Shown: positions 40,497-44,564 of the stretch, in pieces | Numbering within the stretch: position 1 is the first letter of the stretch | Layout: every line of letters begins with the position of its first letter | Origin: an uncultured Bacteroidota bacterium | Lineage (GTDB): Bacteria; Bacteroidota; Bacteroidia; Flavobacteriales; Schleiferiaceae | Assembly (NCBI GenBank): GCA_913057235.1 | Contig: CAJXNI010000021.1 | Span: 1 to 44,564 of the forward strand | Direction of reading: 5' to 3' | Length of the DNA: 44,564 nucleotides | The notes under the pieces: generated by a model | Database searches by the model: none | What the model was told of the DNA's origin: nothing | The model's input: the letters and a program-made list of their open reading frames with translations, nothing else | Translations under genes and position numbers: made by a program

Positions 40497-40514
40497 TCAT
40501 AGAATTTGAAGAAG

Positions 40515-40916
40515 ATGGATAAAATTGAACACATTGGCATTGCCGTAAAAAATCTGGAAAAAAGTAATGCGCTCTTTAGCAAGCTTTTTGGTGCTGAACA
40601 TTACAAAGTAGAGCGCGTAGAACGCGAAGGCGTAAGCACCTCTTTCTTTCAGGTTGGCCCCAACAAAATAGAATTATTGGAAGCAACCAACCCTGACAGT
40701 CCCATTGCCAAATTCTTAAACAAAAAAGGGGAAGGAATTCATCACATTGCCTTTGCCGTAGAAGACATTCACGGAGAAATGGCTCGGCTTCAAGCCGAGG
40801 GGTTTACCCTTTTAAGCGATGAACCAAAGCCCGGAGCCGATAATAAATTAGTGGTCTTTTTGCACCCCAAGAGCAGCAACGGAGTGTTGATTGAATTGTG
40901 TCAGGAGCGCACCTAA
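40515..40916 (+). CDS. mce: methylmalonyl-CoA epimerase
   Basis: A 133-residue vicinal-oxygen-chelate protein from the ATG at 40515. It begins MDKIEHIGIAVKNLEKS, with metal-binding His in EHIGIAV, then KIELLEATNPDSPIAKFL, HHIAFAVEDI and a final LIELCQ. These segments match methylmalonyl-CoA epimerase, which interconverts the R and S forms between propionyl-CoA carboxylase and the mutase. It begins 18 bp after the ABC exporter stop and overlaps the converging HAD gene by 4 bp at its 3' end. No mutase genes are in the window. Confidence 0.88.
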   Translation: MDKIEHIGIAVKNLEKSNALFSKLFGAEHYKVERVEREGVSTSFFQVGPNKIELLEATNPDSPIAKFLNKKGEGIHHIAFAVEDIHGEMARLQAEGFTLLSDEPKPGADNKLVVFLHPKSSNGVLIELCQERT

Positions 40917-41787: not shown

Positions 41788-41861
41788 GGGCCCTTAGCTC
41801 AGTTGGTTAGAGTAGATGACTCATAATCATTTGGTCCGCGGTTCGAGCCCGCGAGGGCCCA
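41788..41861 (+). tRNA. tRNA with CAT anticodon, probably tRNA-Ile2 (lysidine type)
   Basis: A full cloverleaf of 74 bases: acceptor stem GGGCCCT with AGGGCCC, D-arm GCTC with GAGT (G-T end pair), anticodon stem GATGA with TCATT around CTCATAA (anticodon 41822-41824), and T-arm CGCGG-TTCGAGC-CCGCG. CCA is not encoded. The CAT anticodon would be called Met by default, but the CCCTTAGCTCAGT start and GACTCATAATC..TTGGTC anticodon/variable region closely resemble tRNA-Ile2 of Escherichia coli, which TilS modifies to read AUA. I favour Ile2. Confidence 0.9.
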
Positions 41862-41968
41862 CAAAAAAAGGCTATCCGCAAGGATGGTCTTTTTTTTGGC
41901 ACCCGGGCGAGAAGCCTGTCCTGAGAGTAGCGCAGCGAAACCGAAGGGAGCCCGCGAGGGCCCACAAA
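41845..41968 (+). repeat. tRNA 3' end duplicated 103 bp downstream
   Basis: The last bases of the tRNA and its flank, GAGCCCGCGAGGGCCCACAA (41845-41864), recur at 41948-41967. Such duplications of a tRNA 3' end are the usual mark of site-specific integration, though here the copies are close and part of a tandem block. Confidence 0.8.
41863..41899 (+). terminator. terminator directly after the tRNA
   Basis: Stem GGCTATCC with GGATGGTC (two G-T pairs), GCAA tetraloop, then nine T's. It terminates the tRNA transcript. Confidence 0.8.
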
Positions 41969-42057
41969 CAAAGCTCACCTCTTTTCAGGTGGGCTTTTTT
42001 TTGGCCCACGGGCGAGAAGCCTGTCCTGAGAGTAGCACAGCGAAACCGAAGGGAGCC
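41904..42057. repeat. two copies of a 49-bp repeat, 105 bp apart
   Basis: 41904-41952 and 42009-42057 differ at one base. The repeat begins CGGGCGAGAAGCCTGTCCTG and ends CCGAAGGGAGCC. The CTGTCCTGAG..GAAGGGA pattern resembles short dispersed intergenic repeats of Bacteroidota genomes. Copies alternate with the two terminators and the tRNA 3'-end duplicate, so the whole block looks like a tandem duplication. Confidence 0.8.
41967..42002 (+). terminator. second terminator in the duplicated block
   Basis: Stem AGCTCACCT with AGGTGGGCT (one G-T pair), loop CTTTTC, then eight T's. Its stem differs completely from the first terminator although the flanks are nearly identical. Confidence 0.75.
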
Positions 42058-42144: not shown

Positions 42145-42513
42145 CTAAGTTTTAGTAAATATCAATTTGAAGAAATTACCTTCTTGATCGTAAGCGCTTG
42201 AAAAGGTTGGATTTATTTTACTTTTCAGGTTGGATTTTTTTCTAGCCCTTTTTCTTTTTTGCTCGATTGAACGCAGGCATTTTTTAAAATATTCTTGCCT
42301 TTGCCCAATGAGCGGATCAGTCTTAATTCTTTTTGTACGGCACATTTGCACAAAAAGTTTAGTAAATCTTATTCTCTGTTTAGCTGCTTTTGTTTTAGCG
42401 ATATTTTCATCAAAGATTTGAACGTGATTTGCTTGATTTAAAATCTTCTCAATTTCCTGCATTTTCCTTGCAAGCCGTTGACGCGCTTTCTGTTTTCGCT
42501 CACTTCTTTTCAT
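42145..42513 (-). CDS. small, strongly basic protein of unknown function
   Basis: A 122-residue protein with about 35 lysines and arginines, mostly in helical stretches (MKRSERKQKARQRLARK at the start, EQKRKRARKKSNLKSK near 90). It has no signal peptide and no motif that I recognise. The charge suggests binding to DNA or RNA. It starts 18 bp after the stop of the methyltransferase gene on the same strand, so co-transcription is likely. Its DNA is AT-rich compared with the 3' part of that gene. It could also be a minor product of little meaning, but length, start and spacing support a real gene. Confidence 0.5.
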   Translation of the reverse strand: MKRSERKQKARQRLARKMQEIEKILNQANHVQIFDENIAKTKAAKQRIRFTKLFVQMCRTKRIKTDPLIGQRQEYFKKCLRSIEQKRKRARKKSNLKSKINPTFSSAYDQEGNFFKLIFTKT

Positions 42514-42531: not shown

Positions 42532-44564
42532 TTAACTCTCCACCACCTTCATACTCTCCTCCCCAAACTGGCTGATTACCCGCACGGCAATCTTTTGCCC
42601 GGGTTTCACTTGTATGGGGTGAGACTGAAAGCCGTAAAGCCTATCAAAGGCCTCATCGTCTATTTCGATTTTTAAAGTGGCTTCGGCTTTCTTTTTGGTA
42701 GATTGTTTGGCAAGATCGCTGAGGCCTTTCTCCCATTTTTTGTACTCGTCTTTGCTACCTCCGCAGAAGAAGACTTGCTTAACCACGAAGTTGCTGCCAT
42801 CGTAGTTATCATCCACCATCCAGTAAGCGATGTCCTGTACATTTCGACTCTTTACCACATCTTTAATGGGGTCGTAAATGTCGAGGCCGGCAATTTCGAT
42901 TTGTTTCCACCCTTCGATACGATTCTTCCTATCGTCAGAATCACTCAGGGTGACAGGAGCTTCGGCATCTATCAGGCGGACATCCGGTTCACCAATTGTG
43001 ATGAAGGAGCCGGCTTTTTTGTCTTTTTTGAGGAGGCCGTCTTGCATCAGGTCATCGTGCATGCGCACTTTGGTGACGATGAAGTTGCCCACGCTCATGG
43101 ATACGTTTTCGTTTTTGATGTCGCTCTCAAAGCTGAAGCCTAGGATGATGAGCCAATCGGCATCGCCACGGTTGCGGCATTCCTTTACGGCATTATTTAC
43201 CACCTGCCGGCTTACGGTGCCAAATTTGGGGCCGATATACACATAGGCTTTGCGCTCCCGGTCTTCACTGTCTTTATAAAAACCTTCGGCATGAAGGATT
43301 TCGGAGGAAAGCCGTTCCACGCGGATGAACTTGGCTTTTTCGTTCTTCACCCCGTTCATTACCCCGGCTGAGCGCATATGCTCAAACACCCGCTCTTCAA
43401 AGTCTTCGTTTTCCTGGTGGTCTTTTTCCAGTTCCGGCATATCATCCGGGCTTACCGGCTCGTAGTTTTGCAGGGTTTCTACCGTAAAAGGCCCGGCTAC
43501 GCGCAGCTTCTTTTTGTCTTCAAAGGGCTGGTCGTAGAGGGTTTCCGTGGCGGGCGGTTCATCGTTTGCCAGGCTCTTTAAGGTGATGTGCGGCACTTCC
43601 TCGTACACAAAGCCCTGGCGGATATCCCCTTCCTGCTCGGACTCCGGTTTGGGTGAAATCTTTTTTTTGATCTTGCCCTGATCGGTATGGCTTTTCTCCA
43701 CGTTTACATCGCTGTGCAGGTGGTAGTAGGGAAACGTGGCCGTCATCAAACGGGTTTTGGCAATGTTGAGGGCAATGCGGCTGGTATCAATGGTTATCCA
43801 CCTGCGGCCCCATTGTTCAGCAACGTAAGCACCTGTACCGCTGCCACACGTTGGGTCCAGCACTAAATCACCAGGATCGGTAGTCATCAAAATGCATCTT
43901 TGGATCACTTTTATTGCAGTTTGTACAACATACATTTTGCCCATGCCGCTTCCAGTAGCAGTATCATTCCAAATATTATCTAAATAGGAGGCTGGAAAAT
44001 CTTTAGCGTATCTTATACCTGAAACAGTTTTTCCTGTTGAAGCGATACGCTTGATTTTCCCTAATTTTTCTAAACTATCTTTTGGAAAGCCCCACCATCT
44101 ATTACCGGCAGTGTATTTTTTTCCTTCAAAGTCAAAATCATATTTAGAACCAGGACCTGGTTTTGTGAGTATTATGTAACGAAAGTATTCACGTGTTTTA
44201 TCGAAGGTACCCGTATCTATTTCTTTTTGTGGAACTGACTTTATTGATCCATCTTCGTCAAAATAGTATCGATATTGTTGAATGTCATCCTCTATAAGCT
44301 TAGGAGCAAATAATTGCCGATATTTTACCTGAGATACATCCTTAGCGTACCAAATCAAATAGTCGTTTCTTCTAGGAAGTAAATTTGCACCTAATGCTCC
44401 TGATTTTGTTACACTTATCAAGCTAACAAAATTCTCACTTCCAAAAATCTCATCCATCAGGCATCGGACCAGATGCACGTTTTCATCGGAGATCTGCACA
44501 AAGCAGGAGCCGCTTTCGGTGAGCAGGTCGCGGGCCACGGTGAGGCGGTCGCGCAGGTAGGTGA
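42532..44564 (-). CDS. type III-like site-specific DNA methyltransferase (Mod), C-terminal part
   Basis: The gene runs off the right edge; about 677 residues are visible, and the frame stays open to 44564. Seen here: a catalytic-domain segment ([20 protein letters not shown]), an AT-rich target-recognition region (about 40-215 from the GTG at 44538), then the cofactor motif [13 protein letters not shown] and [18 protein letters not shown]. The order with motif I after the recognition region is that of beta-class adenine methyltransferases such as type III Mod, so the DPPY motif should lie beyond the edge. A long C-terminal domain follows. No restriction subunit is encoded downstream; it may lie upstream, outside the window. 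Confidence 0.85.

Follow-up and report, generated by a model that had tools for sequence, protein, structure and literature searches.

The DNA analysed here (the window) is a stretch of 44,564 nucleotides on contig C21, at the far end of which lies a fragment of a Type III-like adenine DNA methyltransferase gene (mod) whose 5′ part is beyond the contig end, position 44564 being the last of the contig (Table 1). The fragment matches Pfam N6_N4_Mtase (9e-23) and the PADLOC model MTase_III (PDLC03632, 6.9e-125), and the open reading frame (ORF) just downstream of it gave no PADLOC, Pfam or NCBIfam match at E ≤ 0.001. In beta-class methyltransferases the catalytic DPPY is followed by the target-recognition domain (TRD) and then by the AdoMet motif. 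In the window gene an AT-rich part is followed, within the second conserved block, by DPTCGSGT at 43834-43857, which we take to be the AdoMet-binding motif and in which D236, P237, T238, C239, G240 and G242 are invariant alignment columns. The position of DPPY falls upstream of the contig end; the motif is present in at least 90% of a 44-row alignment and, as DPPYGIKY, in a second fragment of the gene on contig C36 of the same genome. With DPTCGSGT after it and, to judge by these other sequences, DPPY before it, the AT-rich part is therefore the TRD, as had been predicted from the letters alone, and the matches to other Mods and the drop in identity among relatives agree with this.

Table 1. 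Features at the mod end of the window, with positions in window coordinates
Feature	Position	Strand	Basis
Type III-like adenine DNA methyltransferase gene (mod), 3′ 676 codons and stop	42532..44562	-	Open frame, Pfam, PADLOC
Conserved block before TRD (fragment residues 1-45)	44428..44562	-	Mean identity 0.70-0.91 in 42 relatives
TRD variable part (fragment residues 46-210)	43933..44427	-	Identity to the 42 relatives falls to 0.15-0.49
Conserved block after TRD (residues 211-270)	43753..43932	-	Mean identity 0.75-0.98 in 42 relatives
AT-rich island	43882..44457	.	Two-change-point fit; 5′ edge practically tied with 44502 (43882-44502)
122-codon ORF just downstream of mod	42145..42513	-	Open frame

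Kinship of the fragment to known Type III Mods was found in both sequence and structure. The best PDB matches of a 44-member profile were 6k0w (2e-25), 4zcf (EcoP15I, 1.3e-23) and 7dsu (Mbo45V, 2.5e-14), and all eight PDB chains matched by the predicted structure in Foldseek at E ≤ 0.001 came from these same three entries, whose molecules are modification subunits or Mod. The TRD sits between blocks alignable to 6k0w and 4zcf. The structure model is good only locally (mean pLDDT 70.5, pTM 0.34), with block means of 82-92 in residues 101-190 and of 30-47 in residues 201-270, where the rest of the fold is missing from the fragment. As in EcoP15I Mod, blocks before and after the recognition region align (2.9e-07 for the structural match), but the two proteins are distant, with 19% identity over the structural match, and the Res found in the present genome belongs to the BPTD_3080 family. 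When the mod genes of EcoP1 and EcoP15 were compared in classic work, they reportedly showed conserved ends and a divergent middle.

The second mod fragment, at the end of C36 (L003:1-1284), has the start, DPPY, the conserved block and a TRD before that contig ends in turn. Its block is 83% identical to that of the window gene over 133 nt, whereas its TRD, also AT-rich (GC3 0.33-0.34), is unrelated to that of the window (0.23 identity). Upstream of it are a 148-codon ORF, an HTH protein, a 193-codon ORF, an ORF6N protein and Res; of these four ORFs between Res and mod (L003:1301-3189), the two other than the ORF6N and HTH proteins match the PADLOC candidate models PDC-S05 and PDC-M64. The Res matches BPTD_3080 with 1055.7 bits (cut-off 800), Pfam ResIII and, weakly, PADLOC REase_III (1.3e-05). 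It lies upstream of the C36 fragment, the window fragment's own neighbour being beyond the contig end, and a Res of the BPTD_3080 family is the likely partner of the window Mod. One relative of this Res was found in the genome, in a search that a Res of another family would escape.

C36 is without the mod C-terminus and C21 without the N-terminus, and a search of the genome gave no further match, and so no third fragment completing either copy. The two fragments would be explained either by two TRD alleles of a single locus within the sampled population or by two mod copies. The contigs share no 20-mer that would join them. In the single-contig genome G043 the genes that presumably encode PEP carboxylase and an epimerase lie on opposite strands with about 30 kb between them, whereas a C36-C21 join predicts one strand; gene order in relatives is not decisive on this join. 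Phase variation by repeats is ruled out for the visible mod parts, which hold no simple-sequence tract: the 2115 bases of C36 with the mod start contain no tandem array, and the sole repeat in the window part is a 12-nt unit of 2.2 copies.

Beside mod, the window carries a tRNA-Met at 41788-41862, with a repeat of its 3′ end (26 nt, 96%) at 41948-41973, and between the tRNA and mod lies a 68-nt unit in two copies (at 41885 and 41990, 94%), so that 41788-42057 looks like an integration site. In a genome of the same family (G004, contig 7, L064) res, a 281-codon ORF and mod lie about 12 kb from a relative of the window ORF 40506-40916, which we take to be an epimerase. That ORF is near mod in the window also, but on the other side of it, and a shared insertion region is possible.

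The G+C content of the window is 46.3% and that of 43865-44455 is 35.5%, the lowest of all 591-bp stretches, with equally low values only within 43858-44457. An AT-rich centre in a GC-richer methyltransferase gene, as originally predicted, is thereby confirmed, and recomputation of the underlying hand counts gave 31.7% for 44221-44280 (about 32% by hand), 36.7% for 44101-44160 (37%), 55.0% for 44461-44520 (55%), 72.7% for 44521-44564 (73%) and 48.3% for 43381-43440 (50%). By codon position the TRD has GC1 0.426, GC2 0.386 and GC3 0.254. GC3 beside it is 0.829 in the 105 nt on the 5′ side (the first 35 codons of the fragment) and 0.654 in the 564 nt on the 3′ side, and 0.584 in the C-terminal part of mod. 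The change-point fit that delimits the island gained 24.5 in log-likelihood on a coarse grid, whereas 200 codon shuffles gave no more than 12.7, the 5′ flank being visible for about 107 nt only. The mechanical ORFs of the window mostly have GC3 of 0.38-0.60 and the conserved mod parts are richer, so that backbone and TRD depart from their neighbourhood in opposite directions. Res and the accessory genes on C36 are low as well (GC3 0.36-0.44), which makes the conserved mod parts, and not the TRD alone, compositional outliers.

Conservation was assessed in an alignment of 58 rows, 42 of which, of more than 800 residues, were used (41 fetched relatives and L064; in L021 and L041 a contig edge truncates the gene). 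Compared with the window protein, identity is high in both flanking blocks and falls in residues 46-210, the longest poorly conserved stretch of the fragment; two shorter variable stretches lie outside the TRD, at about residues 286-315 and 526-555. An alignment of alleles had been proposed as the check on the original prediction, with equal divergence over the whole gene as the outcome that would speak against it. Made across species, the alignment has conserved flanks around a divergent centre in the 42 relatives, and the divergence does not extend over the whole gene.

Identity of at least 90% in the C-terminal part occurs in 11 of the 861 pairs of relatives, and in eight of these the TRDs are less than 50% identical, the remaining three having TRD identities of 0.58, 0.70 and 0.93. 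The eight mosaic pairs share members and are not independent. In one of them (L025/L029) nucleotide identity is 0.98 in the N part and 0.96 in the C part, against 0.53 in the TRD. The reverse mosaic was found in L040/L058, where TRDs 0.80 identical in amino acids and 0.75 in nucleotides are set in backbones with N and C parts of only 0.64 and 0.68 amino-acid and 0.60 and 0.61 nucleotide identity; the flanks have GC3 of 0.74 and 0.78 in L040 against 0.31 and 0.32 in L058, and the TRDs of 0.24 and 0.21. With conserved flanks, a divergent centre and mosaic pairs in both directions, TRDs move as cassettes in this Mod family. The swap edges of the mosaic pairs, sought only in residues 10-100 and 150-290, fall at residues 37-50 and 217-235 in seven of eight, the exception being L028/L035 (73, 208). 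The GC3 step of the family is placed at residues 45-220 (bootstrap 37-45 and 220-222); since it coincides with the swap edges in seven of the eight pairs, compositional island and exchange unit are nearly the same segment. Nearly all of the fetched mod loci hold one copy of each segment when searched for extra TRD cassettes or inversions beside mod. A 3-kb contig (L055:76-366) carries an inverted copy of the conserved post-TRD block beside a mod fragment; this may be an inversion or a fold-back assembly, and the locus was not used further.

The evidence for the window's own allele comes from its comparison with relatives and with the C36 copy. The best other match to its TRD by E-value in 395 genomes of the same phylum was 39% identical, although a piece of 37 residues at the edge of a contig reached 61%; no TRD in the fetched relatives' loci was more than 0.44 identical, and neither of two pattern matches in viral contigs was confirmed. 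As there is no close relative of the window TRD in another backbone, exchange of the window allele is not directly seen, and that this TRD itself arrived by exchange is put forward as probable. The presence of two mod fragments, each at a contig end, with a block 83% identical and TRDs that have little in common, could also mean that the genome holds two mod genes or pieces and that the TRD difference reflects old paralogues or whole-gene transfer and not cassette exchange. This explanation has some weight but is doubtful: the genome holds a single relative of Res and no third fragment completing either copy, and whole-gene divergence would not confine the differences to the TRD as is seen among relatives.

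The AT shift of the TRD was measured as a GC3 residual, corrected for amino acids using each gene's own non-TRD codons. In the window gene 0.25 was observed against 0.63 expected. The TRD was below expectation in 42/42 relatives (mean −0.26), in 29/29 genes of the same phylum, which had been fetched by similarity to the window TRD and one of which is identical to L011 (mean −0.21), and in 14/14 plasmid-borne genes (mean −0.24, two of them only −0.01). The plasmid-borne set comprises Alpha- and Gammaproteobacteria, Actinomycetota, Cyanobacteriota, Chloroflexota and Bacteroidota; 15 of the 233 plasmid records with a match were fetched and L100, with a TRD of 68 codons, was dropped. The pool of 89 genes with at least 580 residues and at least 110 TRD codons was reduced to 87 by removal of a duplicate (L069 = L011) and the window gene, leaving 45 fetched relatives, 28 same-phylum and 14 plasmid-borne genes, the C36 fragment being too short. 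The TRD is AT-shifted at synonymous sites in all 87, from several phyla, with a mean of −0.24, although these relatives are deduplicated by identical TRD only and not phylogenetically independent. The shift is at least 0.10 in 76 and smaller in 11, and nearly absent in L107 (−0.008), L104 (−0.010), L034 (−0.016) and L071 (−0.020). The window of TRD length with the lowest GC3 overlaps the TRD by at least 80% in 70/87.

A low GC3 as a general trait of that position in a gene was ruled out by 75 control ORFs, mechanical ORFs of at least 700 codons and not verified genes, for which the mean at the same relative position was −0.014; 46 of the 75 were slightly negative and one was at or below −0.2. 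The lowest 168-codon window of the control ORFs was on average 0.097 below the rest (extreme −0.32), compared with a mean of 0.236 for the TRDs. A 783-codon control ORF in L032 has a GC3 dip of −0.26 at the tested position, as deep as in a TRD. Low G+C is a standing property of this family's TRDs, and with the shift present in every relative examined it is not by itself a signature of exchange in the window allele. The original prediction had read the AT-rich centre as the trace of an exchange of recognition domains. Cassette swaps and mosaic pairs uphold this for the family; for the window allele composition alone is no proof, given the shift in 87/87 and the failure to find a donor in the 395 genomes and the viral contigs.

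The reading favoured here, with a probability of roughly three in four (about 0.77), is that the segment is the TRD of a Type III-like Mod, exchanged en bloc and AT-rich through passage between hosts. In such a Mod a TRD cassette of about 165-175 residues would be set in a conserved backbone, and recombination in the flanking conserved blocks (about residues 37-50 and 217-235) would swap the TRD en bloc and alter the DNA target of methylation and cleavage. Different TRDs are accordingly predicted to confer different DNA specificity. Frequent passage between hosts would keep TRDs AT-rich, with GC3 near 0.25 and only partial drift toward the host, and this partial drift would let the TRD stand out as an AT-rich island. 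This composition would stem from a common AT-rich pool.

In place of such a pool, the coding sequence of the TRD could be kept AT-rich by selection or constraint acting on it, with slow translation for folding, easier recombination or low expression as candidate causes, and exchange may occur all the same. The AT shift in every relative examined despite hosts of very different G+C fits this explanation, as does the L040 TRD, which in its GC-rich backbone is as AT-rich as that of L058 despite drift to 75% nucleotide identity, where pure amelioration should erode the difference. We consider it unlikely, however, as TRD GC3 climbs with GC3 outside the TRD (slope 0.42 in the 87 relatives, 0.37 in the 42), which partial amelioration predicts. 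The TRD is hardly shifted in AT-rich backbones (mean 0.24 vs 0.29, n = 7), which does not suggest that host-rare codons are favoured, and other variable regions of the same genes are unshifted (−0.03 vs −0.26 in the TRD in 42 relatives). It is very improbable that the AT-richness merely follows from the amino-acid make-up of a DNA-binding domain that evolves fast: the TRD is the most extensive poorly conserved stretch and has a lower GC1 (0.43 vs 0.55-0.66), an effect that make-up may explain in part, but GC2 is not lower (0.39 vs 0.31-0.40), the corrected GC3 contradicts this cause at synonymous sites in the window gene and all 42 relatives, and outside the TRD the GC3 residual does not correlate with conservation (rho 0.01).

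Exchange en bloc with an AT-rich composition has a counterpart in Neisseria, where the recognition domain of modA12 was moved en bloc and has a G+C of 28% against 40% and 40% in the flanks, which was interpreted as evidence of horizontal transfer (PMC3311624). The present family resembles ModA of Neisseria and Haemophilus influenzae, in which conserved 5′ and 3′ regions are described as flanking a variable recognition domain (PMC3311624). It differs from the phase-variable modA in that the visible window and C36 parts are without a simple-sequence repeat tract, and in its likely BPTD_3080 Res partner. Low G+C was there reported for modA12 (PMC3311624) and is here found in 87/87 relatives of another Mod group. 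In Helicobacter pylori, Type III TRDs recombine, across species, at weakly similar sequences encoding conserved methyltransferase motifs, and are said also to move between non-orthologous genes, whereas the present swaps are between homologues with one backbone type in different species (PMC3983042). A literature search, with few subscription papers within reach, returned no report of a family-wide AT shift of TRDs. The segment belongs to a known kind of exchangeable recognition domain; what merits further attention is the AT shift that relatives share, together with the agreement of its edges with those of the swaps.

The same sign was seen, more weakly, in Type I HsdS (L112-L141), where recognition-domain GC3 was below the prediction from neighbouring ORFs in 27/29 loci (mean −0.11), from 30 loci of the same phylum of which L119, without codons, was dropped. 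The reference was neighbouring ORFs and not confirmed hsdM, so that the HsdS shift is a lead only. It is an evenly balanced question whether recognition domains of RM systems make up a separate gene pool, moving across phyla and AT-rich whatever the host. If they do, composition would mark the exchange unit in specificity genes without allele comparison. The comparison supports the view that hosts pass the recognition domains of this Mod family among themselves as cassettes, and as low G+C is general in the relatives examined, it should not on its own be taken for recent transfer in one gene. Should the AT-rich TRD pool span phyla, the unit of exchange in many specificity genes could be traced by a simple scan of composition, and the origin of new DNA specificities would become testable.
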